From positions 1 through 32,547 of the forward strand of contig JAJYPS010000023.1 in assembly GCA_021795215.1 (NCBI GenBank): DNA of 32,547 nt, given 5' to 3'. The translations under genes were made by a program, and so were the position numbers. Positions 7,830-19,974 of this stretch are shown one piece after another. Within the stretch, counting starts at the first letter, position 1. Each line of letters begins with the position of its first letter. The notes under the pieces were generated by a model. It ran no database searches and was not told where the DNA came from. It saw nothing but the letters and a program-made list of their open reading frames with translations. Source of the DNA: Actinomycetes bacterium. GTDB taxonomy: Bacteria; Actinomycetota; Acidimicrobiia; Acidimicrobiales; JAKAOS01.

Positions 7830-9344
7830 TCAGCTCGAGCTGGCACGGAACTGGCTGGCCCCAGAAGTGGCGCCGCGCACTCCTTCTTTTCCGTACCAGT
7901 CGATGCAGACCACGGTGGCGTCGTCGCTCAGCACTTGACCGGTCGCCTCCAGCAGATGGTCGGCCAGCTCCTGAACCACCTGTCTCGGATGACGGTCGCG
8001 GGTGGACCGCAGCACCTGCTCCACGTTTACTCGGGAAGTGTTGCGCTCCAGGTAGCCGTCGGTCACCAGCAGCAGCCGGTCCCCCGGGACCAGCTGCACT
8101 CTGTGTACCGAATACGTGCTGTCGCCGATCCCGAACGGCGTATCCGCCGCCAGGACGAGCGCCGAGGCCCGTCCGTCCCGAAGTAGGTACGGCAGTGGGT
8201 GCCCGGCGTTGACGATCTCCATGAGGCCGCTGGAGAAGCTGGCTCGCAGCAGTTGGGCGGTGACGAACTCCGAATCCTGACCGTGCTCGACGATCGAGCA
8301 GTGGGCAGCTCTGGCCTGAGCCGCCAGGTCGTCATACGCCCGCCGGCTGTTGCGCAGTGCGCCGACCGCCAGGGTCGCCAGCAGGGCTGCCCGCACCGAA
8401 TGGCCCATCGCGTCCGTGATCGACACGTGCAGGTCGTCGGCTTCGATCGAATAGTCGAACGTGTCGCCCCCGACGTTGTGCGCCGGCTCCAGCCATCCCG
8501 CCAGTGTCACCGCTCGGTCCTCGGCGGTGTAGGACGAAGGAAGCAGCCGCCGTTGGATCTCCGCCGCTACCGAGAACCGAATGTCGCGTTGAGTGTTCTC
8601 GAACCTGTCCGTGTGGCGCCGTGCAGCGATGAGCATGTAGGCGAGCGCATGAGCCGCGCTGCGCAGCAGGTCCACCGTGCTGTCGTCCGGGCTCTCGCTC
8701 AGCGTCACCTCCAGGATCCCCATCGCATCGCCCCGCTCGGTGACCGGCAGCAGCACCCTCCACACCCCGCTCGCCTGTGACACCCCGCTCGCCTGTGACA
8801 CCCCGCTCGCCTGCGACACCTCGACCGCCTGCGTGTGCAGCACCCGTGTGTACAGCGAATCGGCCCTGGTCAGATCCTCGTCGGTTCCGCCGCCCCGTCG
8901 TTCTCCCACGTCGCCACGTGAGGATGCGAAGTGATCTTCGACCACGCGGACCAACGCCGTACCGCTCAGGTTGGCAAGGAGCAGGCGCACCTTCTCGGTC
9001 GGCAGCAGCCTTCCGAGCTCCTCGGCGACGACACGGACCACGTCGACCGGGGGAGCCTCCTCGACTGCTGCCAGCAGGCGGCGCAAGTCAAGTGCCCCGG
9101 TTTCCTTCGCCTGCATCCTCGGACAGTACATGCAGCCCAAGTTCGATTGCACAGGGAAGAAAGTTGCTGGCTCAGGCGCCACTAGTTGCGCGTAACCGGG
9201 CGGGTTCGGGAGCAGTCCCGGACGTCCGAGACCGGCCGTCGCCAAGGCGACCGAGCGGGCTTCCGAGGCGCTCGACCGCCCAGACTCTGTCGGACGCGCC
9301 GGCACTGGCGGATTTGCGGTTGCTGTGGCAGGCAAAAGGTCCAT
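7830..9344 (-). CDS. PP2C/SpoIIE-type serine phosphatase with GAF-like sensor
   Basis: About 504 residues from ATG 9344. The N terminus is Pro/Ala-rich and contains CMYCPRM, a CxxC pair. A GAF-like region follows (LRRLLAAVEEAPPVDVVRVVAEELGRLL... VWRVLLPVTERGDAMGILEV). The C-terminal domain is a PP2C of the SpoIIE/RsbU kind: EIQRRLLPSS, VGGDTFDYS (metal-binding Asp), ITDAMGHSVRAALL, NAGHPLPYLL, LLLVTDGYLERN and LSDDATVV. Such enzymes dephosphorylate anti-anti-sigma factors in partner-switching signalling (family knowledge). A six-residue VSQASG repeat lies in the GAF-like part. The track start (9440) would overlap the divergent ctaG start; ATG 9344 is only a compromise, and a GTG nearer 9180 is also possible. 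No sigma-factor partners are adjacent. Confidence 0.86.
   Translation of the reverse strand: MDLLPATATANPPVPARPTESGRSSASEARSVALATAGLGRPGLLPNPPGYAQLVAPEPATFFPVQSNLGCMYCPRMQAKETGALDLRRLLAAVEEAPPVDVVRVVAEELGRLLPTEKVRLLLANLSGTALVRVVEDHFASSRGDVGERRGGGTDEDLTRADSLYTRVLHTQAVEVSQASGVSQASGVSQASGVWRVLLPVTERGDAMGILEVTLSESPDDSTVDLLRSAAHALAYMLIAARRHTDRFENTQRDIRFSVAAEIQRRLLPSSYTAEDRAVTLAGWLEPAHNVGGDTFDYSIEADDLHVSITDAMGHSVRAALLATLAVGALRNSRRAYDDLAAQARAAHCSIVEHGQDSEFVTAQLLRASFSSGLMEIVNAGHPLPYLLRDGRASALVLAADTPFGIGDSTYSVHRVQLVPGDRLLLVTDGYLERNTSRVNVEQVLRSTRDRHPRQVVQELADHLLEATGQVLSDDATVVCIDWYGKEGVRGATSGASQFRASSS
8763..8834. repeat. 18-bp tandem repeat inside the phosphatase gene
   Basis: The unit CACCCCGCTCGCCTGTGA is repeated three times (8763-8816, one mismatch in the third copy), followed by a degenerate fourth copy. 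On the coding strand it encodes VSQASG hexapeptides. The period keeps the frame. Confidence 0.9.
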
Positions 9345-9374
9345 TCGCTTCGGGTCGCGTCGCTTCGGGTCGCG
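9345..9374. repeat. 15-bp tandem duplication near the phosphatase/ctaG start region
   Basis: CGCTTCGGGTCGCG is present twice in tandem with a 15-bp period. It lies between the phosphatase start region and the divergent ctaG promoter, and would encode repeated DPKR if the long phosphatase frame were used. Confidence 0.7.
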
Positions 9375-9397
9375 CTCCGGCGCGAGGACTGCGGAGG

Positions 9398-9403
9398 TAA
9401 CGT
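9398..9403 (+). promoter_or_regulatory. putative -10 (TAACGT) for ctaG copy 2
   Basis: TAACGT ends 5 nt before the tandem GTG GTG at 9409-9414. GGAGG (9393-9397) also precedes it at about 11 nt from the start, so either a leaderless message or an SD-led one is possible; both point to GTG 9409 as start. Confidence 0.4.
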
Positions 9404-9408
9404 CGCGA

Positions 9409-10296
9409 GTGGTGCCAGCAGCCGTCAGCCCGCATGTCACTTTCGACCGGCTGCTTCTGGCGTGGCAACTACAGCCGCTCGCCCTGGCGTCGCTCGCCGT
9501 CGTGGTGCTGGTCGGGTTCGCCTATGTGGCCGGCGTACGCCGGGTGCAGCGGCGGGGACGGGCTTGGTCCCGGTGGAAGACCGCTTCCTTTGTCGGCGGC
9601 CTGGCGTCCATAGTCGTGGCGGTCAACTCCGGGCTCGCCTCGTACGACGACTCGGTGTTCACGATGCACGTCATACAACACCTGATCCTCATGAGCACCG
9701 CCCCGCCCCTGCTCGCGTTGGGGTCTCCCGTCACGCTCCTGCTCCAGGCGTCTTCCAGGGACACCAAACGGGTCGTGCTGAAGGTGCTCCACAGCCGTCC
9801 CGCCCGGATGCTCTCCTTCCCCCTCGTGGGGCTTGCCGTCTCGACGGTCGTCATGTATGGGTACTTCCTGACCCCCCTGTACGACGCGTCTCTCGTGCAT
9901 CCTCTGCTGCACGACGCCACGCACGTGGTCTTCCTGGCGGCCGGCTCGCTCTACTGGTGGCCGATAGTTGGTACCGATCCCATACCGAGGCGGATGGGCG
10001 TCGGGGCAAGGATGGCTTCGCTGGGCCTCGCCATCCCGTTCAACGCCTTCCTGGGCATCGCGGTCATGAACATGTCGTCGCCGATAGCACCCCGCTACAG
10101 CCTGACCGACACCCAGTCCGGGGGAGCGCTCCTGTGGGGCCTCGGGGAGCTGTTCACCCTGGGTGCGCTCGGAGTGCTGTTCCGGGAGTGGGCCAAGGTC
10201 GAGGAGCGACGGGCGGCCAGGGAGGATCGTCGGCTCGACGCAGAGCGCCTTGCCGCTCGAAACCCCGGTTCGGCTGCGGCCGGCGACCGCTCGTAG
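9409..10296 (+). CDS. CtaG-family cytochrome c oxidase assembly protein (copy 2)
   Basis: About 295 residues from GTG 9409, an integral membrane protein of the CtaG_Caa3 family. It shows WQLQPLALASLAVVVLVGFAYVAG (helix 1), the His-rich FTMHVIQHLILMSTAPPLLALGSPVTLLLQ motif, LLHDATHVVFLAAGSLYWWPIVGTDP, and a last helix before a strongly charged tail (EERRAAREDRRLDAER). These match the family core better than copy 1 does. The track frame starts at 9325, but the intervening residues are repeat-derived and Arg-rich. It is divergent from the phosphatase gene and convergent with the Lrp-like gene. Confidence 0.88.
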   Translation: MVPAAVSPHVTFDRLLLAWQLQPLALASLAVVVLVGFAYVAGVRRVQRRGRAWSRWKTASFVGGLASIVVAVNSGLASYDDSVFTMHVIQHLILMSTAPPLLALGSPVTLLLQASSRDTKRVVLKVLHSRPARMLSFPLVGLAVSTVVMYGYFLTPLYDASLVHPLLHDATHVVFLAAGSLYWWPIVGTDPIPRRMGVGARMASLGLAIPFNAFLGIAVMNMSSPIAPRYSLTDTQSGGALLWGLGELFTLGALGVLFREWAKVEERRAAREDRRLDAERLAARNPGSAAAGDRS

Positions 10297-10350
10297 AGCC
10301 GCCTCTCCCCGAGTCCCCGGTCCTTCGGCATTTCGCAACGGTGCTCGCCG

Positions 10351-10366
10351 GCTCCCTCCGGGGAGC
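10351..10366. terminator. hairpin between convergent ctaG and Lrp-like genes
   Basis: GCTCCC-TCCG-GGGAGC forms a perfect 6-bp stem with a stable-looking tetraloop in the 73-nt convergent gap. A wider CGGCTC/GAGCCG pairing encloses it. No T-run is present; it may act in both directions. Confidence 0.4.
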
Positions 10367-10369
10367 GTG

Positions 10370-10606
10370 TCAGAGCCGCATGACCGGACACGTCAGCGTC
10401 CGGGTTACGCCCTCTATGAGCTGCACCCTGGACACGACCGTCTTGCCCAGCTGGTCGACGGACTCGGCTTCGGCTCGGATTATCACGTCGTAGGGTCCGG
10501 TCACGTCGTCGGCCGCGACGACACCCGGTATGCCCCTGACCTCGCCGGCGACCTGCGCCGCCCTTCCCACCTCAGTCTGGACCATCACGTACGCCATCAC
10601 CGTCAC
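10370..10606 (-). CDS. stand-alone Lrp/AsnC ligand-binding (RAM) domain protein
   Basis: A 78-residue alpha/beta protein: VMAYVMVQTEVGRAAQVAGEV, GVVAADDVTGPYDVIIRAE, then LGKTVVSRVQLIEGVTRTLTCPV. This is the effector-binding/oligomerisation domain of Lrp/AsnC regulators without the helix-turn-helix. Stand-alone versions probably bind amino acids and may modify full-length regulators (inference). The track frame starts at 10699, but AAGGAGG lies 8 nt before a GTG at 10606, which decides the start; the extra N-terminal residues are Arg/Ser-rich noise. Confidence 0.88.
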   Translation of the reverse strand: MTVMAYVMVQTEVGRAAQVAGEVRGIPGVVAADDVTGPYDVIIRAEAESVDQLGKTVVSRVQLIEGVTRTLTCPVMRL

Positions 10607-10730
10607 CGGGCGAGCCTCCTTCGGGTACGCGGATGGTACCGGGCTGCACCAGCATTCGGTGCGGCGCCGGCGGCTTGGCGACGCCTGTCCTTCCGACACG
10701 AGGCCGGGTGCGCACCGCGGGCCGTGCGAT

Positions 10731-10736
10731 TAGGGT
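10731..10736 (+). promoter_or_regulatory. putative -10 (TAGGGT) for def
   Basis: TAGGGT fits TANNNT and is 14 nt before GTG 10751 and 47 nt before the alternative CTG start at 10784. No clear -35. Confidence 0.35.
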
Positions 10737-10750
10737 GGCCCTAGCGCGCC

Positions 10751-11341
10751 GTGGCGGGCTCACAGCTTTTCGAGGAGGAGACGCTGGCTGTTCGCTCAAT
10801 ACGCTTGCTGGGTGACCCGGTGCTCCGTGCTCGGGCATCCGAGGTCGTGGATTTCGATCGCCCTCTGCGCCGGCTCGTCAAGGACTTGGGGGACACCATG
10901 GTGGAGGCCAACGGAGTCGGGTTGGCGGCTCCTCAGTTGGGGATCGGGCTGCGGGTGTTCACGTACCTGGTGCCATCCTCGGAGGACGACGACGGAGGCC
11001 ATGTCGCGCACCTCGTGAACCCTTCCATCGCGGAGGAGGACCCGGACCAGGTGGAGGACGACGAAGGCTGCCTCTCCGTGCCCGGTATCTCGTACCCGCT
11101 GAAGCGACCTCGCAGGGTGGTGGCCAGAGGTTTCGACGGGCACGGGGAGCCGGTCGAGGTGACAGGCACGCTGCGGCTTGCCAGGTGCATCCTGCACGAG
11201 ACGGATCATTTGAACGGAGTCATCTTCTTGGACCGGCTCGAACCAGAGCTCCGCCGGGAGGCGCTGAAGGAGTTTCGCGAGCGGATGCTCGCAGGCGAGT
11301 CGATCCAGGTCGAGAAGTCACCGCACAGGCCCCTGCTCTGA
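10751..11341 (+). CDS. def: peptide deformylase
   Basis: A 196-residue (185 from CTG 10784) metalloenzyme that removes the formyl group from new N-terminal methionines. All three family motifs are intact: GVGLAAPQLG (motif I), EGCLSVPG (motif II, the metal-binding Cys) and HETDHLNG (motif III, two metal-binding His and the catalytic Glu). Family proteins usually begin just before the RSIRLLGDPVLR segment. That segment is preceded by GAGGAGGAG (10772-10780) and then CTG at 10784, so the real start could be the non-canonical CTG; the conventional choice is GTG 10751. The E1 dehydrogenase gene follows after 37 nt. Confidence 0.95.
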   Translation: MAGSQLFEEETLAVRSIRLLGDPVLRARASEVVDFDRPLRRLVKDLGDTMVEANGVGLAAPQLGIGLRVFTYLVPSSEDDDGGHVAHLVNPSIAEEDPDQVEDDEGCLSVPGISYPLKRPRRVVARGFDGHGEPVEVTGTLRLARCILHETDHLNGVIFLDRLEPELRREALKEFRERMLAGESIQVEKSPHRPLL

Positions 11342-11378
11342 GGGTGCACGAGCCGGTCTCCACAGCGGAGGAGCGATA

Positions 11379-13706
11379 ATGGCAGCCAAGTCCCAGGCGA
11401 CCGCGCAGTCCCGTGTCACCGGAGTGGCGGGTCGCGTGGGGGCGCCCGACCATTCCGACCGGGGATTCGGCTCCGGCGCCGACCGGAATGCGAGGAGTGC
11501 TGGCGCCCCCGCGGTGCGACGACCGGGAGAGTCGGCCGCTCGGCGCCCCGCAGGATGGCCCGACTCGGAACTGCTGGAGGACTACAGGCTGGCCTGCGTC
11601 TCGCGTGCCATAGACGACCGCGAGGTCATCCTGCACAAGCAGAGCCGAGCGTTCTTCCAGATCTCCGGTGCCGGTCACGAGGCTCTGCTCCTGGGGTTGG
11701 CCCGTTATCTGCGGCCCGGCTACGACTGGTTCTTCCCCTACTACCGCGACTTGGCGCTGATGCTCGGCCTGGGCGTCAGTCCGTACGAGATCCTGCTGCA
11801 GTCGGTCGGCTCGGCGGACGACGCGGCGTCGGGGGGCAGGCAGATGCCTTCGCACTGGGGCTTCGTGGACAAGAACGTGGTCACGCAGTCGAGCCCGACG
11901 GGGAGCCAGTGCCTGCCGGCGGTCGGATGTGCGGAGGCGGCGCAGTACATGCAGCAGCGCAGCCACCTTTTTGTAGACGAGGTCCACGCCGACGAAGTGG
12001 TCTATGTGTCCCTGGGCGAGGGTGCGACTTCGGAGGGCGAGTTCTGGGAGAGCCTGAACACAGCGTGCAACCTGCGCCTACCGGTGCTGTACGTCGTCGA
12101 GGACAACGGCTACGCGATATCTGTGCCCGTGGCGGAGCAGTCCCCCGCGCCCATCTCGGAGCTGGTGACGGGGTTCCCCGGCCTCACCGTCGAAGTGGTG
12201 GACGGATGCGACTACGTAGCGGTGCGGGACGTCGCGGAGCGAGCCGTGGCGGCCGTCCGCTCGGGCAACGGACCCTGGCTGCTGCACGCCAGGGTCACGA
12301 GGCCGCACTCGCACTCGTCGGCAGACAACCAGGCAAAGTACCGCTGCGCCGACGAGCTGGCGGAAGAGGCCGAGCGAGATCCCCTCGTGGTGTTCGAGCG
12401 CCACCTGGCCGCCCGGGGCCTGCTGGATTCAACGGGCGCCACGGAAGCCCGTGCCCAGGCGCGCCAGCTCGTGTCCGAAGCCGCTGCTGCCGCGCTGGCG
12501 GCGCCGAGACCCGACCCGGAGTCGGTCACCGACCACGTGTGGGACCTGGACAGGGTGACCTCCGGCGTGTCGGTCCGGCAGGACGACGGTCTCGCCGGTG
12601 CACGGCCCCCCGGTGGCAACCACTTCGACCCGTGGGTGGGCCGTCACGCGCGAGCGGCCTCGAGCGGCGAACGTACGGGCGGAGAAGTGGTCGCGATGGG
12701 TGAGGCGATCCGGCGGACTCTGGCGGAGGCGCTGGAGGAAGACGACCGGGTGCGGGTGTTCGGAGAGGACGTGGCCGACGCGGCGGAAAGCGTGCTGGGA
12801 AAAGTGGACGGCCAAGGCGGAGTGTTCGGCACGACGTTCGGGCTGCAGCGCCACTTCGGCGCCTCGCGGTGCTACAACACTCCGCTCGCGGAGGCGAACA
12901 TCGTCGGCCGGGCGGTCGGCCAAGCGGTGAGGGGACTTCGACCCTGTCCCGAAGTGCAGTTCTTCGACTACATCTGGCCTGCGATGCAGCAGATCAAGAG
13001 CGAGGCCGCCACGATCCGCTGGCGGTCCAACGGAGCGTTCTCCTGCCCGATGGTCCTCCGGGTGCCCATCGGCGGTTACATCACCGGGGGCGCCATCTGG
13101 CACTCGCAGTGCGGCGAGTCGATCTTCGCCCACATTCCCGGCCTGTTCGTGGCGTTCCCGTCCCGGGCGGCGGACGCGGCGGGCCTGCTGCGGACGGCGC
13201 TGAGGGCGGCGGACCCGGTGCTGTTCCTGGAGCACAAGCACCTGCTTCGCCAGGCCTACACCAAGGACCCGTTCCCCCCGGCGGGAGAGCTGATCCCCTT
13301 CGGCGTAGCCAGGACGGTGGTCACCGGAGAAGACCTGACCATCGTGACGTGGGGTGCGACGGTGGAGAGGTGCCGTCGCGTCGCCGCTTCGCTGGAGACC
13401 GCGGACGAGGCGTCGGTCGAGGTGATCGACCTACGGACGATCATGCCGTGGGACCGCCAGGCGGTCGCCGACTCCGTGCGCCGAACCGGAAGGCTGCTGG
13501 TGGTGCACGAGGACACCCTCACTGCCGGGTTCGGCGCCGAGGTGGCTGCCTGGGCCGCTCAGGAGTGCTTCGCCGATCTGGATGCCCCCGTCCGGCGGGT
13601 GGCAGCGAAGGACACCCACGTTGCCTACGAACCGACCCTGGAGCGCTCGACGCTTCCCCAGGTGGAGGACATCGCCGCGGCGGTAGCCGACCTGCTGGCC
13701 TGGTAG
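11379..13706 (+). CDS. fused E1alpha-E1beta 2-oxoacid (branched-chain type) dehydrogenase
   Basis: 775 residues, with both E1 subunits in one chain. Residues 1 to about 60 are a low-complexity tail. The E1alpha half (about 62-400) has SRAFFQISGAGHEA, DWFFPYYRDLALML, MPSHWG and the thiamine-diphosphate motif GEGATSEGEFW...EDNGYAIS (about residue 213; GEG where GDG is usual). The E1beta half (from about 437) begins GEVVAMGEAIRRTLAEAL and contains VFGEDVAD, NTPLAEANIVGRAVG and HEDTLTAGFGAEVAAWAAQECF. The enzyme decarboxylates 2-oxo acids and transfers the acyl group to a lipoyl E2; the E1alpha motifs look most like the branched-chain or generic 2-oxoacid type. No E2 or E3 gene is in the window. 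GGAGG lies 9-10 nt before ATG 11379. The substrate is uncertain. Confidence 0.9.
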   Translation: MAAKSQATAQSRVTGVAGRVGAPDHSDRGFGSGADRNARSAGAPAVRRPGESAARRPAGWPDSELLEDYRLACVSRAIDDREVILHKQSRAFFQISGAGHEALLLGLARYLRPGYDWFFPYYRDLALMLGLGVSPYEILLQSVGSADDAASGGRQMPSHWGFVDKNVVTQSSPTGSQCLPAVGCAEAAQYMQQRSHLFVDEVHADEVVYVSLGEGATSEGEFWESLNTACNLRLPVLYVVEDNGYAISVPVAEQSPAPISELVTGFPGLTVEVVDGCDYVAVRDVAERAVAAVRSGNGPWLLHARVTRPHSHSSADNQAKYRCADELAEEAERDPLVVFERHLAARGLLDSTGATEARAQARQLVSEAAAAALAAPRPDPESVTDHVWDLDRVTSGVSVRQDDGLAGARPPGGNHFDPWVGRHARAASSGERTGGEVVAMGEAIRRTLAEALEEDDRVRVFGEDVADAAESVLGKVDGQGGVFGTTFGLQRHFGASRCYNTPLAEANIVGRAVGQAVRGLRPCPEVQFFDYIWPAMQQIKSEAATIRWRSNGAFSCPMVLRVPIGGYITGGAIWHSQCGESIFAHIPGLFVAFPSRAADAAGLLRTALRAADPVLFLEHKHLLRQAYTKDPFPPAGELIPFGVARTVVTGEDLTIVTWGATVERCRRVAASLETADEASVEVIDLRTIMPWDRQAVADSVRRTGRLLVVHEDTLTAGFGAEVAAWAAQECFADLDAPVRRVAAKDTHVAYEPTLERSTLPQVEDIAAAVADLLAW

Positions 13707-13768: not shown

Positions 13769-15931
13769 TCAGAGAACGTCGACCGGCAAGTCCGCCAGCA
13801 CGTCGGCCGGCTGGAAGCCCAGGACCTCGCCGAAGAACTCCAGTTCCGCCTCCATGCAGCGGCGCTGGGTGTCGGACTGTCGGAACCCGTGCCCCTCGCC
13901 CTCGAAGGTCAGCAGCCGGTACCGGACGCCTTTGGCGGCCAGCGCCGCCGCCATCGCCTCGGCCTGTTCGGGCGGCACGACCCGGTCTTCGACGCCCTGG
14001 AACAGGATGACCGGCGTGGATAGCAGCTCCGTGTGGGCCACGGGGGAGCGTTCGGCGTAGGTCTGCTGCATCTGCGGGTACGGCCCTATCAGCTTGTCGA
14101 GGTAGCGGGACTCGAACTTGTGGGTGTCGGCCGCAAGCGCCGCTGCATCTCCGATGCCGTAGTAGCTCGCCCCCACGGCGAAGCTGTCCGTGAAGGTCAG
14201 GGCGCACAACGTGGTGTAACCGCCGGCACTGGACCCCCGTACGGCCACTCGCTCGCCGTCCGCCCTGCCGTTGGCTGTAGCCCAGCGGGCTGCTGCCACA
14301 CAGTCGTCCACGTCCAGCACGCCCCAGTTGCCATCCAGCAGCTCCCGGTAGGGGCGGCCATACCCGGACGACCCGCCGTAGTCGACCTGCAGCACCGCGA
14401 ACCCCCGGCTGGTGTAGAACTGCACTCCCTTCAGGTCCAACAGAGCCCTGAACGCTGCAGTCGGCCCGCCGTGGCTCAGCACCACCAGAGGAGGCCGCTC
14501 GCTTCCATCCGCCTCCACCAGAGGGTTCTTGGGGCCGTAGAACAGCCCGTATGCCTCGCTGCCGTCGGCCCTCGGGAAGCTGGCTCTTTCGGGCACCGAG
14601 ATCCACTCCGGTCCCACCAGAGGGTGGCCCCTGTCGCTCAGCGGCCTCGGACGAGGCCGACCGTCCCCAGGGCGCAGGTCCACTTCCACCACGACGCTCG
14701 GCTCCGTCGGGCCGCCGGCCACGGCGACGAAGCCCCCGGGCACCGGCCAGAGGTGGGAGAAGACCTCGTACGGCCCGGTGTCGACGTCCTGCAATCCTCC
14801 TTCCACCACGAGCGCCAGGCGATCCCTTCCCCCTGCCGTGTAGCAGCAGGCGACGACGTCTCCACCGGCTTGGTAGTCCCCCGCAACTGGGTCGTCCCCC
14901 GTAGCTTGGTCGTCGCTGGCGGCTCGGTCGTCCCCCAAAGCGGGGTCGTCGCCCGTAGCTTGGTCGTCGCTGCCCACGCCGGCCTCGGCGGCGCCTTCTC
15001 CGACGATGCTGGCTTCTCCGACGATGCTGGCTTCTCCGACGATGCTGCCTTCTCCGACGATGCAGTAGCGGTAGTCCCGGAACACCCACTGAGGCGAAGC
15101 GAACTCGGCTTGCGTGCGGTGGTCCACAGCGCATCGGGTACGGGTGCCGTCCCATCGGTACGGGAGCCACCAGCCGGTCCTGTCGCTCACGAAGTAGAGG
15201 GTTCCCGCTGCGGCCCAGGTGGGGTGGCACACCGACTCGCCGGGCCCTCCGGCCACCTTCGCTGGTTCCGACATCTCCAAGTCCTCACCGAGGTAGGCTG
15301 TCCAGAGCCGGGAGGAGTCCCACGGCATCGCCGGGTGGTCCCAGCTCACCCAAGCCAAGTGGTCGCCGCGGGGGGAGACCCTGGGACTGGACACGAAGTC
15401 GGCCGTGACGGACAGCACCCGCTCGTCGCCCGATCCGTCGGTCCGGAGGGCAACCAGCTCGTTGCGCACATCGGCGCTCCGGCCGCCGGGGGTGTGGGTC
15501 TCCCTCACCCCCACGAGCCATCTCCTGTCGGGAGTGACCGTGAGGTCCGCCCAGCGCACGGACCTGGGGTTGGCGGGCTCCGCGGAGATCGGCACCGGTT
15601 CCGTGCCAGGGCCTTCGATGCGCACGACTCGTTGCGTGGCGTCATCCACCGCGTACACGAGGTGGTCCACCGGTAGGTACGCCCCTCCGCCATACTCGTG
15701 CACTCGGCTGCGGATCGACATTCCAGGTGCCATCTCCACGGTTCGGCCGAGATGCCGCAGCATCAGCGCCTGCCGGCCACCTTCCTCCGGACGCTGCTCC
15801 AGCCAGTAGCGGCGGCCGGCGGCTGCCGCCGGTTCGGATACGGGCCGGTGTCCGGACCGGGTCAGTGCGTCAGGTGAGAGCGGCGACGGCCAGGCTCCGA
15901 AGGGGACGGTACGTCGCTCGGCCCGGTCCAT
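13769..15931 (-). CDS. S9 family peptidase (prolyl oligopeptidase / acylaminoacyl-peptidase type)
   Basis: 720 residues without a signal peptide. An N-terminal beta-propeller (to about 440) carries strands such as HEYGGGAYLPVDHLVYAVD and DRRWLVGVRETHTP. A C-terminal alpha/beta-hydrolase domain has PPLVVLSHGGPTAA, the nucleophile GSSAGGYTT (Ser about 566), the acid in GVEDRVVPPEQAE and the His in FEGEGHGFRQ. It likely cleaves short peptides in the cytoplasm. The propeller contains two hexapeptide repeat arrays of acidic low-complexity sequence, probably a surface loop. TAGCGT ends 6 nt before ATG 15931, supporting the start and a leaderless message. The upstream 226-bp repeat begins 23 bp beyond the start codon. 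Confidence 0.92.
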   Translation of the reverse strand: MDRAERRTVPFGAWPSPLSPDALTRSGHRPVSEPAAAAGRRYWLEQRPEEGGRQALMLRHLGRTVEMAPGMSIRSRVHEYGGGAYLPVDHLVYAVDDATQRVVRIEGPGTEPVPISAEPANPRSVRWADLTVTPDRRWLVGVRETHTPGGRSADVRNELVALRTDGSGDERVLSVTADFVSSPRVSPRGDHLAWVSWDHPAMPWDSSRLWTAYLGEDLEMSEPAKVAGGPGESVCHPTWAAAGTLYFVSDRTGWWLPYRWDGTRTRCAVDHRTQAEFASPQWVFRDYRYCIVGEGSIVGEASIVGEASIVGEGAAEAGVGSDDQATGDDPALGDDRAASDDQATGDDPVAGDYQAGGDVVACCYTAGGRDRLALVVEGGLQDVDTGPYEVFSHLWPVPGGFVAVAGGPTEPSVVVEVDLRPGDGRPRPRPLSDRGHPLVGPEWISVPERASFPRADGSEAYGLFYGPKNPLVEADGSERPPLVVLSHGGPTAAFRALLDLKGVQFYTSRGFAVLQVDYGGSSGYGRPYRELLDGNWGVLDVDDCVAAARWATANGRADGERVAVRGSSAGGYTTLCALTFTDSFAVGASYYGIGDAAALAADTHKFESRYLDKLIGPYPQMQQTYAERSPVAHTELLSTPVILFQGVEDRVVPPEQAEAMAAALAAKGVRYRLLTFEGEGHGFRQSDTQRRCMEAELEFFGEVLGFQPADVLADLPVDVL
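14880..15065. repeat. two adjacent 18-bp tandem arrays inside the S9 peptidase gene
   Basis: At 14995-15065 the unit CTTCTCCGACGATGCTGG occurs almost four times, encoding SIVGEA-type hexapeptides. At about 14880-14975 a more degenerate array encodes GDDQAT/GDDPAL-type hexapeptides, also 18 bp each. Both keep the reading frame. Confidence 0.88.
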
Positions 15932-15937
15932 TCGGTC

Positions 15938-15943
15938 ACGCTA
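15938..15943 (-). promoter_or_regulatory. putative -10 (TAGCGT) of the S9 peptidase gene
   Basis: On the minus strand TAGCGT ends 6 nt before ATG 15931; no SD is present. It lies just outside repeat copy A, so any -35 contact would fall within the repeat. Confidence 0.45.
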
Positions 15944-15954
15944 CCCAATGGGGG

Positions 15955-16180
15955 GCAACTGGCGCGACCTGTCTCGGCGTCGTGACGGCCGGCGGTCACT
16001 ACGTGGTGGCTTCGGCGCGCTGCGACCGAAGCGTGCGAAAACCAACACCTACGCCCACGTTCTGGCAGAAAGCCATTTCTGCCGTGATCGCCGCAGGCGA
16101 GGATCAGCCGCGGCCACCTGATCGCTCGTCGTCCGACCAGCGGCCGGTGAAGATATTGAAGCCAGGCAAACGAAAGCCCG
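15955..16180. repeat. 226-bp direct repeat, copy A (left edge of island)
   Basis: It matches 18321-18546 in the same orientation, with seven mismatches and no gaps by my reading (about 97%). It includes the inverted repeats GTGAC-N8-GTCAC, GCTTCGG-N10-CCGAAGC (16009-16032) and GGCAGAAA-GCCA-TTTCTGCC (16064-16083). On the minus strand its right part encodes the tail FRLPGFNIFTGRWSDDE of the small membrane protein found intact at copy B; here the membrane-helix part is absent, so this copy is a truncated remnant of that gene. Confidence 0.93.
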
Positions 16181-16205
16181 TCCGAGCCTCACCGCCGCGC
16201 GCCCC

Positions 16206-16302
16206 CAACTTGGCCACGACGAGCATGTCGCCCGACCGACACGCCGTGCGGTGAGGTCCTGTCGTCTGTCGACACCTTGGCGTAGCCGATCTTGACGTCG
16301 AC
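16206..16302 (-). pseudogene. serine recombinase (resolvase family) N-terminal remnant
   Basis: On the minus strand one frame reads VDVKIGYAKVSTDD (16261-16302), the typical start of resolvase/invertase-family serine recombinases including the catalytic Ser. A shift to a second frame gives RQDLTARR, and a third frame gives SGDMLVVAKLGAR (16200-16232), matching the later GDxLVVxKLDRLAR motif of the family. The expected 35-40 residues between the last two motifs are missing. It is a frameshifted and internally deleted fossil, cut off at repeat copy A. Confidence 0.7.
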
Positions 16303-16370
16303 AGCCCGCCGCCCTTGGCGATGGGAAGCTGGAATCGGTGAGCATCGCCCAGGTTGCTCGGCCTGCCAAG

Positions 16371-16402
16371 ACCAGTCCTCGACTGGTACAATGAATCGTA
16401 CC
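16371..16402 (+). promoter_or_regulatory. promoter/operator of the yefM-yoeB operon
   Basis: A -10-like TACAAT (16387-16392) overlaps two inverted repeats: ACCAGT-N5-ACTGGT (16371-16387) and GGTAC-N8-GTACC (16385-16402). YefM-type antitoxins autorepress by binding palindromes at their own promoter, so these are candidate operators. A weak -35 candidate CTGCCA (16363-16368) lies 18 nt upstream of the -10. Confidence 0.55.
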
Positions 16403-16423
16403 GTTACCGGAGGAGGGCAGGCC

Positions 16424-16672
16424 GTGACCGTCACCGCCAGCGAGGCCCGCAAGAACCTATTCCCGCTCATTGAGCGGGTCAACGACGATCGCCAGCCCAT
16501 CGAGATCACCTCTCGCCGCGGCGATGCGGTGCTCGTGGCGCGGGCCGACTGGGATGCGCTAAACGAAACGGCCATGCTGCTGCGGGTACCAGCCAACGCC
16601 CACTGGTTGTTGGACAGCCTGGCGCAGGCTCACGCCGGGGCACGGGAAGAGCACGCCCTCGATCGAAGCTAG
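16424..16672 (+). CDS. yefM: YefM/Phd-family antitoxin
   Basis: 82 residues from GTG 16424 (TVTASEARKNLFPLIERVNDDRQPIEITSRRGDAVLVARADWDALNETAMLL). This is the standard YefM/Phd fold: an N-terminal DNA-binding dimer part followed by a C-terminal helical tail that wraps the toxin. GGAGG (16409-16413) lies 10 nt before the GTG; the track's earlier starts, including ATG 16391, overlap the promoter and are less likely. The stop codon directly abuts the toxin start, so the pair is one operon. It neutralises the YoeB-like RNase and represses its own promoter (family knowledge). Confidence 0.92.
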   Translation: MTVTASEARKNLFPLIERVNDDRQPIEITSRRGDAVLVARADWDALNETAMLLRVPANAHWLLDSLAQAHAGAREEHALDRS

Positions 16673-16933
16673 GTGCGCCTCGTCTTCACCCCTCGCGGTT
16701 GGCAGGACTACGTCTGGTGGCAAGGGAACGACCGGGCGACTCTGAAGCGGATCAACCGACTGGTCGACGACGCTCTACGCGATCCGACGGCGGGTATCGG
16801 CAAGCCGGAGCCGTTGCGTCACGTGCTCGCCGGATGCTGGTCGCGGCGGATCGACGAGGAGCACCGCTTGGTGTACCTCGTCGACGGCGAGGACTTGGTC
16901 GTCCTCCAGGCCCGTTACCACTACGAGGCATAG
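16673..16933 (+). CDS. yoeB: YoeB/Txe-family mRNA interferase toxin
   Basis: 86 residues. It aligns by eye with E. coli YoeB over its length: GWQDYVWWQGNDRATLKRINRLVDD, GKPEPLRHVLAGCWSRRIDEEHRLVY and the terminal ARYHYEA. The catalytic residues known from YoeB are all present (the Glu of KPEPL, the Arg of EEHRLVY, His and Tyr of YHY), so the toxin looks active. YoeB is a ribosome-dependent endoribonuclease that cuts mRNA in the A site. The GTG start immediately follows the antitoxin stop. Confidence 0.94.
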   Translation: MRLVFTPRGWQDYVWWQGNDRATLKRINRLVDDALRDPTAGIGKPEPLRHVLAGCWSRRIDEEHRLVYLVDGEDLVVLQARYHYEA

Positions 16934-17025
16934 GCCACCGAGGGACGAAGGCCGGTCACGAAGCCCGGCAGGCCCCCGCTGCGCACGCTCCCGGTCAGCC
17001 ATCGGTCAACGGGCTGGGTCGGATG

Positions 17026-17050
17026 CCAGCTCGTGCCGGACGCGAGCTGG
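17026..17050 (+). terminator. hairpin downstream of the toxin-antitoxin operon
   Basis: CCAGCTCG-N9-CGAGCTGG is a perfect 8-bp stem, 93 nt after the yoeB stop, without a T-run. It is the best terminator candidate in the 322-nt gap (16934-17255), which otherwise shows no convincing gene. Confidence 0.4.
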
Positions 17051-17243
17051 TAGCTGCGGCATGTGGCGCGGGGAAACCGACAATCCGTGCTGCCCTTCCG
17101 GCCGATGGTCGGTACCTGGGTCGCCGAGCGTTGGCGCGGCGAGGCCGTGGCGGTGGGTGGGAGGTCGAAGTACAGGCATGATGGGGCCTCGGCAGGTCCT
17201 TGCCTAGAGCAGCGGGGTCCGTGGGCTCGCTCGCGAGTGTCGC

Positions 17244-17249
17244 TAGGGT
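17244..17249 (+). promoter_or_regulatory. putative -10 (TAGGGT) of the DinB-like gene
   Basis: TAGGGT ends 6 nt before GTG 17256, with no SD sequence, as expected for a leaderless message. Confidence 0.42.
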
Positions 17250-17255
17250 GCCGGA

Positions 17256-17756
17256 GTGACCACGCACCGGACCGGTGATGAGCGCCCTGTGATGGAGTAC
17301 CAGCTCGAGGCCCAGCGCTCCGACCTTGCGACGCTGCTGGATGGCCTCACCGAGGCGGAGGCGCGGGCCCGGCTGGTGCCATCACTGACCACGCCGCTTG
17401 GGCTGGTAAAGCACGCCACCTTCGTCGAGCAGGTGTGGTTCCACCACCGAGTGGCCGGTGTGCCCCGCGAGCAGGTCGGGATCCCCGAGACCGTCGACGA
17501 CAGCTTCGCCCTGACTTCGAAGGACACCGTAGGGGAAGTACGGCGGCGTTACCTCGACGCCTGCGAGCGCTCTCGGGAGATCGCCGCCGAGCACGACCTG
17601 GATGAGGTCTTCGACTGGCGAGGAACTCCGGTCAGCCTGCGGTTTCTCTATGCCCACCTGCTTACCGAGCTAGCCCGACACGCCGGCCACGGGGAGATCC
17701 TGGTCGAGCAGCTCCGGGCCCGCCGCGGAGCGGGCGACACCGAACCTGGCAACTGA
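17256..17756 (+). CDS. DinB-family protein (DUF664 type)
   Basis: 166 residues of a four-helix-bundle protein. It contains MEYQLEAQRSDLATLLDGLTEAEARARLVPSLTTPLGLVKHATFVEQVWF, with the first metal-ligand His in VKHATFVE, and the later HLLTELARHAGHGEILVEQL, holding the other His ligands. The DinB/DUF664 superfamily includes metal-dependent thiol transferases that use mycothiol or bacillithiol, and this mycothiol-type variant is common in actinobacteria. The substrate is unknown. It sits alone inside the repeat-bounded island, 322 nt after the toxin gene. A second in-frame start (ATG 17292) is possible. Confidence 0.85.
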   Translation: MTTHRTGDERPVMEYQLEAQRSDLATLLDGLTEAEARARLVPSLTTPLGLVKHATFVEQVWFHHRVAGVPREQVGIPETVDDSFALTSKDTVGEVRRRYLDACERSREIAAEHDLDEVFDWRGTPVSLRFLYAHLLTELARHAGHGEILVEQLRARRGAGDTEPGN

Positions 17757-18060
17757 ACGCCACGCTCCACTCCTCACGCTCCGGCGGCACGTCGTGGCCA
17801 TCCCATAAGGAGATGCTGAAGACAATGCGCGCGTCAAGTGTTCTCGGCGGCATCCGGTGGGATTGCACTGCCGTTGGTTGCGTTCGCCACAGCCTCGCGG
17901 ATGCGATCGCGGAGATGGCTTCGGCGTCGCTGGTTACTGTTCTCGTTCTCCCCAGCCCTGAATGGGAGGTCGAACTTTAGAAGCTCCTTACCAGGGTTTC
18001 AATAGACGTTAGCATCCCACATGGACTCTCTGAGCCGGGCCTCGACGTAGTCCGGTCCGT
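17757..18060. other. 304-nt gap with gene debris and a locally AT-richer stretch
   Basis: No intact gene is visible. On the minus strand a frame reads RIVFSISLWDGHDVPPEREEW (about 17770-17840), which looks protein-like but is not one I recognise; it may be a remnant. About 17955-18030 is clearly poorer in G+C than the surroundings. No tRNA or clear attachment site was found. Confidence 0.4.
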
Positions 18061-18289
18061 ATGCAGACACCCTTCCTGGCCCGCCAAGACGCCTTGCTCT
18101 ACTTCGGCGGTGAGACTCCGGTGTCACAGGTCTGGGCGGAGGGTTTGGAGCCTCGCAGCGATGGGTTTTGGCCGCGCTTCGACGTCGACATCATGCCCGC
18201 CAGCCTGGCGTTCGTCGAGGACCGTGCCTGCTGGACGGAGTGGGCGAACATCAGCCAGCCCACCTTGTTAGTGCTCGGCGAGACTGGCA
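18061..18289 (+). pseudogene. alpha/beta hydrolase fragment (truncated at both ends)
   Basis: The frame from ATG 18061 gives about 76 residues that resemble the cap and following segment of alpha/beta hydrolases: LEPRSDGFWPRFDVDIMPASLAFV, then WTEWANISQPTLLVLGETGM, the strand that normally leads to the catalytic acid. The nucleophile elbow expected upstream and the acid/His part expected downstream are both missing. At 18290 the sequence switches abruptly to a piece of S9 peptidase DNA and then to repeat copy B, so the 3' end was lost by recombination. The open frame runs on to 18351 through unrelated sequence. Confidence 0.72.
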
Positions 18290-18320
18290 TGTCGGGAGTG
18301 ACCGTGAGGTCGGCCCAGCG
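18290..18320. repeat. 31-bp fragment of the S9 peptidase gene, joined to repeat copy B
   Basis: 18290-18320 matches 15524-15554 inside the S9 gene with a single mismatch, in the same orientation. It is followed without a gap by the sequence that at the S9 locus lies 400 bp further on (15955). Copy B therefore looks like a duplicate of 15524-16180 that lost the 400 bp containing the S9 start. Confidence 0.88.
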
Positions 18321-18546
18321 GCAACTGGCGCGACCTGTCTCGGCGTCGTGACGGCCGGCGGTCACTACGTGGTGGCTTCGGCACGCTGCGACCGAAGCGT
18401 GCGAAAACCAACACCTGCGCACACGTTCTGGCAGAAAGCCATTTCTGCCGTGATCGCCACAGGCGAGGATCAGTCGCGGCCACCTGATTGCTCGTCATCC
18501 GACCAGCGGCCGGTGAAGATATTGAAGCCAGGCAAACGAAAGCCCG
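18321..18546. repeat. 226-bp direct repeat, copy B (right edge of island)
   Basis: Direct repeat of 15955-16180. It includes the hairpin GGCAGAAA-GCCA-TTTCTGCC at 18430-18449, 20 nt downstream of the small membrane protein stop on the minus strand, where it may serve as that gene's terminator. Copy B carries the 3' end of an intact gene, whereas copy A carries only the gene's tail. Confidence 0.93.
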
Positions 18547-18655
18547 GGTGGCGATGCCAACCTCTGAAGGCGATCACGGCCAGAGTCGCGATCGCCACCA
18601 AGAGCACGAGAAGCAAGACAAGCAAGATGACGGTGATGACGACGGTCGATCCCAC
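18470..18655 (-). CDS. small single-helix membrane protein
   Basis: 61 residues from GTG 18655. A hydrophobic helix (VVITVILLVLLLVLLVAIATLAVI, about residues 5-28) is followed by a short basic turn (FRGWHRHPGFRLPG) and the polar tail FNIFTGRWSDDEQSGGRD. GGAGGGAG lies 8 nt before the GTG, which supports expression. I do not recognise the family. It starts 48 nt after the stop of the secreted protein on the same strand and is probably co-expressed with it. Its last 26 codons are duplicated in repeat copy A; the tail residues are almost unchanged there, which could reflect recent duplication rather than selection. Confidence 0.75.
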   Translation of the reverse strand: MGSTVVITVILLVLLLVLLVAIATLAVIAFRGWHRHPGFRLPGFNIFTGRWSDDEQSGGRD

Positions 18656-18703: not shown

Positions 18704-19738
18704 CTAGAAATTGTAGGTCTGTCCCGTCTGCGACGTGAGGGTGTAGCCCGTCGCGGTGACGGCGATGCTGGCGATGGGGGAGGGCAGCGGCTTGGCAGCG
18801 GCGCTCCCGTACCACTTCGCACCGCCGAAGTTGTAGACGTTCCCCTTGGCGGTTACCAGGAAGTAGCCGTTGGTGACGGGCACCAGCGCCACGACGGCCG
18901 TCGGCAGGTGTGCTGCGGCGAGGCTCCCGAACCACCTGGCCCCGCCGTGGTTGAACACATTGCCCATCGCACTGAACTGGTAGGTGCCACCCCCGACCGC
19001 CTGAACGGTAGTGAGCCGCAGCGGCGTCGGGGCCGGAGCCGGAGCCTGCACAGGAGGCGGAGGGGTGGGTCCTGGTGTGGGGTTTTGCCAGTTCGTCTTG
19101 TAGTTGCAGTTCGTTGCCGCGTAGATCGGGTTGTTCTTCTGGTACTGCGGCGGCGTCCAGCAGATGTAGCTGGAGGGAAGGACGGTACCTGGACCGTTTG
19201 GTATCCAAGGGGCGGCGATCTCATTGCCAATTGGGGGCGGACCCGAGGGGCCACCTACCCAGCCGAAGCCGGCGAGCTTCGCCATGCTGATGGAGTTGAC
19301 GGGCGGCCATGCTCCTGCCCAATTAGTGTTCGTGAGCGGATTGTGCACGAGCGTAGCGTTGAGCAGGAAGTTGGGTAGGGGGGTTCCCGGCTTGACCTGA
19401 GAGACCACGTTCGGTGGCGTGCCCTCGCTGCACGGCCACACGACCAACGTGTGGGTGTAGTCGTACCCTTCACACGCTCCAGTGCCCGGGTCAACCGTAA
19501 TCGTCACGCTGTAGGTCCCGCCGCCGTTGGTACCCGGGTCCCCGCCGTAGACCATAGGAACGTAGTTGTCAATGATCGGCTGGTGCGTGACCGCGCTGAT
19601 CGGCAGTCCAGCCAGCGCCCCAACCTGCACCACCCCGTCGGTGGCCACTGCCGGAGCCGCCGCGTTGGCCACCCCGCCAGGCAGCAGGACGCCACCCAGC
19701 ATGGCCGCTATACCCATGAACCTCCGCAGAACGCTCAC
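18704..19738 (-). CDS. secreted protein with C-terminal aromatic Gly-rich repeats
   Basis: 344 residues from GTG 19738 (GGAAGG about 10 nt upstream). A signal peptide is clear: RRF, a hydrophobic core, then VANA|AAPAV. The middle part (about 30-230) is a Cys-containing, Pro/Asn/Gly-rich domain I do not recognise (CEGYDYTHTLVVWPC; YICWTPPQYQ). After a Pro-rich linker (PTPGPTPPPPVQAPAPAP) come at least two repeats of about 43 residues of the form NGYFLVTAKGNVYNFGGAKWYGS. This resembles the GYWLVASDGGIFSFG-type repeats found many times in extracellular Acidimicrobiia and related actinobacterial proteins, thought to form propeller-like surface modules. It is probably exported and may bind the surface or a substrate. 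The track start at 19828 would place 30 polar residues before the signal peptide, so GTG 19738 is preferred. Confidence 0.85.
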   Translation of the reverse strand: MSVLRRFMGIAAMLGGVLLPGGVANAAAPAVATDGVVQVGALAGLPISAVTHQPIIDNYVPMVYGGDPGTNGGGTYSVTITVDPGTGACEGYDYTHTLVVWPCSEGTPPNVVSQVKPGTPLPNFLLNATLVHNPLTNTNWAGAWPPVNSISMAKLAGFGWVGGPSGPPPIGNEIAAPWIPNGPGTVLPSSYICWTPPQYQKNNPIYAATNCNYKTNWQNPTPGPTPPPPVQAPAPAPTPLRLTTVQAVGGGTYQFSAMGNVFNHGGARWFGSLAAAHLPTAVVALVPVTNGYFLVTAKGNVYNFGGAKWYGSAAAKPLPSPIASIAVTATGYTLTSQTGQTYNF

Positions 19739-19974
19739 TCTTTCGGTACCTTCCAGGACGCGTATTCGTCGCTTCTCGCCATTCCAACATCGGCAGCTCT
19801 CTGTTGTATTGAGCGCTGTTCGTGCCACCCAAGCTCTGCACGCTGACTCCCGCTCAACGCTGACTCCTGCTCGAGGAAGTGGATGAGCGGCGCGTGTACC
19901 CGGTCGCCGGGGCCGTGCACCTGGGACGCATCGTTGCTTCTGCGCACCGCCGCTCGGGAGACATACTGACCGGC

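Follow-up and report, generated by a model that had tools for sequence, protein, structure and literature searches.

The window, that is the whole stretch of 32,547 nucleotides that was analysed, is one entire contig (C16) of a 2.61-Mb draft genome, fragmented into 152 contigs and with a completeness of 92.7%. An intact S9 peptidase gene and an intact gene for a small membrane protein, both on the minus strand, flank an island of 2.1 kb that is enclosed by two direct repeats. The features of the locus are:

13769-15931, minus strand: S9 (prolyl oligopeptidase family) peptidase gene, intact (ORF; PF00326, 4e-48), which gave the duplicated 5' segment
15526-15556: part of the S9 coding sequence (31 bp, roughly codons 126-136) that is found again at 18290-18320 (30/31 identity)
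15557-15953: 397 bp found in the left copy alone, made up of the S9 5' end plus the 22 bp before it (offset between the copies changes from 2764 to 2366)
15954-16180: left direct repeat, S9 upstream region and 3' end of the small membrane protein gene
16206-16296, minus strand: N-terminal remnant of a serine recombinase (resolvase) gene with a frameshift and about 40 codons missing (reading frames; resolvase matches)
16380-16423, plus strand: promoter/operator region of the toxin-antitoxin (TA) pair with the palindrome TGGTACAATGAATCGTACC; left limit of homology to the TA modules of other genomes
16424-16672, plus strand: yefM antitoxin gene (PF02604, 9e-16)
16673-16933, plus strand: yoeB toxin gene, intact (PF06769, 4.7e-36; TIGR02116, 6e-31)
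17256-17756, plus strand: mycothiol-S-transferase/DinB-superfamily gene, intact ORF (PF04978, 4.9e-35; PF12867 (DinB_2), 4.5e-11)
18061-18288, plus strand: interior part of an alpha/beta-hydrolase gene, which stops at the S9-derived piece (tblastn)
18290-18320: 31-bp leftover of the duplicated S9 5' region
18320-18546: right direct repeat, running into the intact small membrane protein gene
18470-18655, minus strand: small membrane protein gene (61 aa), intact, 3' end within the repeat (ORF)
18704-19828, minus strand: secreted repeat protein gene (ORF), missing from the S9-thiL gap of a relative (G002, see below)

Duplicated host DNA at the borders

Alignment of the two repeats yielded 227 bp without gaps at 96.9% identity, in close agreement with the preliminary description, which had counted 226 bp and 7 mismatches by eye. 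The mismatches lie at 16017, 16051, 16055, 16093, 16108, 16123 and 16131, and the right copy has an A or T at six of these seven sites. The preliminary description had named dispersal of the repeat through the genome as counting against its reading; a whole-genome search found only two copies in the 2.61 Mb, which rules out a dispersed family. The final codons of the small membrane protein gene are present in both copies, the junction at 16180 cutting the left one, so that S9 is whole at the left copy and the small membrane protein gene is whole at the right copy. Deletion of one repeat and the interior was said to restore a coherent locus, and it does: S9 starts at 15931 and the small membrane protein gene occupies 18470-18655, both on the minus strand.

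The preliminary description had overlooked the short S9-derived piece at 18290-18320, which abuts the right repeat on its left and is identical to 15526-15556, within the S9 gene, except at one of the 31 positions. The probability of such a match arising by chance is about 1e-12, and the sole mismatch is synonymous in S9. The right copy thus derives from a host segment of 655 bp or more (15526-16180) and is worn, lacking 397 bp (15557-15953), or it was made without these 397 bp by template switching with two jumps. The duplicated segment comprises the 5' end of S9, the intergenic region and the 3' end of the small membrane protein gene; its two copies have the same orientation, and foreign DNA separates them. 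Because of the S9-derived 31 bp, the repeat is to be regarded as duplicated host DNA and not as the end of an element, which strengthens the earlier proposal that the insert lies between duplicated host sequences. A composite transposon or insertion sequence does not fit, since no inverted repeats were found at the island borders and the duplication measures 227 bp and more, against target duplications of 2-14 bp for such elements.

All four interior components named in the preliminary description, a recombinase remnant, a TA pair, a DinB-family gene and a hydrolase fragment, were recovered. The recombinase remnant is tiny. Two segments of 13 residues each (KIGYAKVSTDDR and ACRSGDMLVVAKL) match a generic resolvase N-terminus; the start of the remnant reads KIGYAKVSTDD, followed by the frameshift and then ACRSGDMLVVAKL, and nothing of the gene survives past the repeat border at 16180. 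Judging from these reading frames, the remnant cannot work. The PhdYefM antitoxin gene lies directly upstream of yoeB (the ORFs end at 16672 and start at 16673; the GTG start of yefM was chosen by aligning the starts of relatives), and the pair is intact and predicted to form a TA module. As in other YefM-YoeB type II modules, adjacent antitoxin and toxin genes stand behind a palindromic operator; the pair is ordinary as such, and its sole peculiarity is its place between host duplications. The transferase gene is followed by about 300 bp without recognisable genes. The hydrolase fragment is 53% identical to Streptomyces alpha/beta hydrolases (tblastn, E 5e-16), the match stopping at base 18288; Pfam and PDB searches did not recognise it. 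No second copy of the stretch 17745-18290 was found elsewhere in the genome, and the island holds no intact integrase or recombinase of the kind expected in an integrase-mediated genomic island. The recombinase and hydrolase genes are broken at opposite junctions of the island; since the foreign segment begins in a wrecked recombinase gene and stops within a hydrolase gene, it is a piece of donor DNA and not a mobile element with its own ends.

Two observations concern the flanking genes. Within S9, 18-bp tandem repeats at 15000-15063 encode a variable linker (IVGEASIVGEAS). The secreted protein (18704-19828) contains FGGAKWYGS-type repeats, and similar repeats occur on C96 and C103 of the same genome.

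The insert compared with other genomes

The relatives searched included two genomes of the same family and none of the same genus. Among the database relatives of the S9 peptidase is one from a draft genome of the Acidimicrobiales (L023), with 37% identity; for the small membrane protein, no convincing homologue was found among 58 relatives. One genome of the same family (G002), the closest relative suited to the comparison, has pdf-BCKDH-S9-thiL-DAK-recG in the same order, with S9 and thiL about 130 bp apart and neither repeat, island, small membrane protein gene nor secreted protein gene between them. As S9 lies directly beside thiL in G002, the gap between the two genes was filled later in the genome studied here. 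This comparison dates the whole S9-thiL insert; it does not show precisely the site before insertion, since G002 also lacks the genes for the small membrane protein and the secreted protein.

A comparison with 397 genomes of the order gave matches to the TA pair and, at a distance, to the transferase, and to nothing else of the island, which rules out an island shared by relatives as a unit; no second relative was found with a larger part of the insert than this pair. Origin as a plasmid or phage piece was also rejected, as the records cover at most the TA pair or one island gene. About 30 genomes of the order share YefM-YoeB as a unit that extends from the operator to the toxin stop, with 66-88% DNA identity; its occurrence at unrelated places shows that it was acquired horizontally and is a mobile module. 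TA cassettes with special ends were considered and dismissed: past the operator and the toxin stop, the flanks differ between the window and its nearest relatives, and there is no common end motif. In one genome (G045; L133, 7338-7906) the pair has been inserted into the division gene cluster, with ftsZ on one side and a laccase-domain (YlmD/YfiH-like) gene on the other.

Other spaced direct repeats

Repeats of at least 40 bp and at least 80% identity, spaced 0.3-6 kb apart, were scanned in 1.6 Mb of this genome (G000). Direct repeats were present at 13 loci and inverted repeats at none; the corresponding numbers for mixed control loci (1.46 Mb) were 11 and 9. Some of the spaced direct repeats are tRNA ends around small islands (L184, L268, L290) or tandem paralogues. 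The clearest parallel to the island of the window, with the same build, lies on another contig of this genome (C84, L259), at 8600-13149 (gene names read from translations, except for the HTH gene):

8600-10722: intact M15 peptidase-hemerythrin-VOC cluster
10758-11821: Fic-domain/HTH gene pair, on the strand opposite to the cluster
11885-12644: worn copy of the 8600-10722 segment, followed by an intact isochorismatase gene

The second copy of this segment has shrunk from 2.1 kb to 0.76 kb through several deletions. On C86 (L261, 8023-10534), a VapBC pair is flanked by two copies of an RHS core, one worn and the other intact. On C35 (L206, 13043-14990), a gene for an MFS transporter and a divergent Rrf2 regulator gene are followed by a worn copy of the 3' end of the transporter gene, which consists, to the right, of 88 bp at 98% identity, a 91-bp deletion flanked by CAG, and a further 25 bp; the bracket is similar and there is no TA pair in it.

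In two other genomes, YefM-YoeB stands almost alone beside a tRNA gene (Gln at L163, G136, 1758-2642; Arg at L167, G188, 1945-2786), with a 47-bp copy of part of that tRNA gene on the other side. TA pairs are known to outlast the rest of an island, and both loci fit this pattern. They resemble the island of the window in having the same toxin family between direct repeats with little else inside; in these two loci a tRNA end of 47 bp forms the repeat (site-specific integration), whereas in the window protein-gene ends do.

Origin and retention of the island

We estimate at roughly 60% the probability that a single recombination event, or a small number of them, placed horizontally acquired DNA beside S9 and duplicated the target, and that the island is the scar left after later erosion. 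An additive, homology-anchored insertion would have created a merodiploid with foreign DNA between the copies, either through a single crossover of a circular molecule or through homology-facilitated illegitimate recombination with DNA of a related strain; the copies would then have diverged and the redundant one would have lost 397 bp. We infer this order of events because the exact empty site is absent from sequenced strains. Homology-facilitated illegitimate recombination is a described process (PMC3240628), and the locus resembles such integrations, or additive (Campbell-like) ones, in that foreign DNA adjoins duplicated homologous host DNA and that one junction lies in homology and the other at unrelated sequence. 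It differs from such cases in being reconstructed from a single genome, with an eroded copy and an event not caught in action. The preference for duplication or integrative recombination over simple transposition, already expressed in the preliminary description, is upheld by the absence of transposon ends and of a tRNA attachment site and by the foreign genes cut at both junctions.

The main rival is a plain tandem duplication, which we consider possible though unlikely. The row S9-small membrane protein-recombinase-TA-transferase-hydrolase would already have existed, a unit of about 2.8 kb would have been doubled, and complementary deletions would have taken the body of the small membrane protein gene out of the left copy and, out of the right copy, all that lay beyond that gene. 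The offsets of 2764 and 2366 bp and the erosion by internal deletion do resemble the local duplications on C84, C86 and C35, and the exclusively direct orientation of the spaced repeats in the 1.6 Mb scanned is in keeping with it. However, a tandem duplication requires more independent deletions than an insertion with duplication, and self-comparison revealed no trace of recombinase, TA or hydrolase to the right of the right copy.

An assembly chimera of strain variants in the metagenome bin is improbable. The draft consists of 152 contigs and the repeats exceed a typical short read, so that one could be hidden here; yet each junction is local and of unique sequence, the copies differ at seven positions, and a de Bruijn assembler, faced with such repeats, would more probably merge them or end the contig there than create 2.1 kb of intervening sequence. 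An integrase-type genomic island, with the 227 bp as attL/attR and the remnant as the former integrase, could account for direct repeats that enclose foreign DNA with a recombinase remnant inside, and TA pairs do lie between a tRNA gene and its 3'-end copy at L163, L167, L290 and L184, but it is likewise improbable: the window contains no tRNA gene and no duplication of a tRNA or short attachment site, the repeat is made of ordinary gene ends, the duplication once reached about 400 bp into S9, and the cores that serine recombinases leave behind are short rather than 227-655 bp long.

Recombination normally soon eliminates long direct repeats that lie about 2 kb apart. Under homology-anchored insertion, YefM-YoeB may, more tentatively, have penalised loss of the island by recombination between the repeats and so have blocked its loop-out. 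Retention through TA addiction is plausible by analogy, because TA loci are known to prevent superintegron deletions (Szekeres et al. 2007, as reviewed in PMC5543033) and a TA locus stabilises SGI1 (PMC5006074). The island shares with TA-stabilised islands (SGI1 sgiAT, SXT mosAT, Vibrio superintegron relBE/parDE) a TA pair in removable DNA with recombining borders; unlike these, it has no integrase and no tRNA attachment site and measures only 2.1 kb, and its TA pair is a candidate stabiliser. Overall, the locus illustrates well a familiar type of genome scar and reflects mostly ordinary genome evolution; the eroded duplicate and the parallel on C84 are the mildly surprising part. Surviving repeat pairs that have diverged and eroded internally are a natural archive of the factors that hold inserted DNA in its position, and if TA genes are the reason, genome sequences would allow counts that bear on the often-debated part of chromosomal TA loci as guards of neighbouring DNA.

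It is rather doubtful that the TA pairs of this lineage act in general as locks on segmental duplications, loop-out being lethal and the redundant copy being worn by internal deletions. If they did, this locus, C84 (Fic/HTH) and C86 (VapBC) would be datable fossils. The bracket without a TA pair at L206 leaves retention by TA pairs, that in the window included, unproven, as do the held-out PIN toxin loci, not inspected before, of which none of nine testable ones (±1.5 kb loci only) was bracketed by direct repeats. In the first set, 4 of 14 testable TA loci were bracketed (5 of 15 with C112), compared to 23 of 600 random places (p = 0.002); for all TA places examined, the numbers were 5 of 27 and 26 of 1000 (p = 0.0009). 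A genome-wide enrichment of TA loci between direct repeats is thus suggested by the first set, is unproven given the mixed pattern, and is not claimed here. Two of the five bracketed TA positives are a tRNA end (C115) and pieces of a toxin gene (C112).
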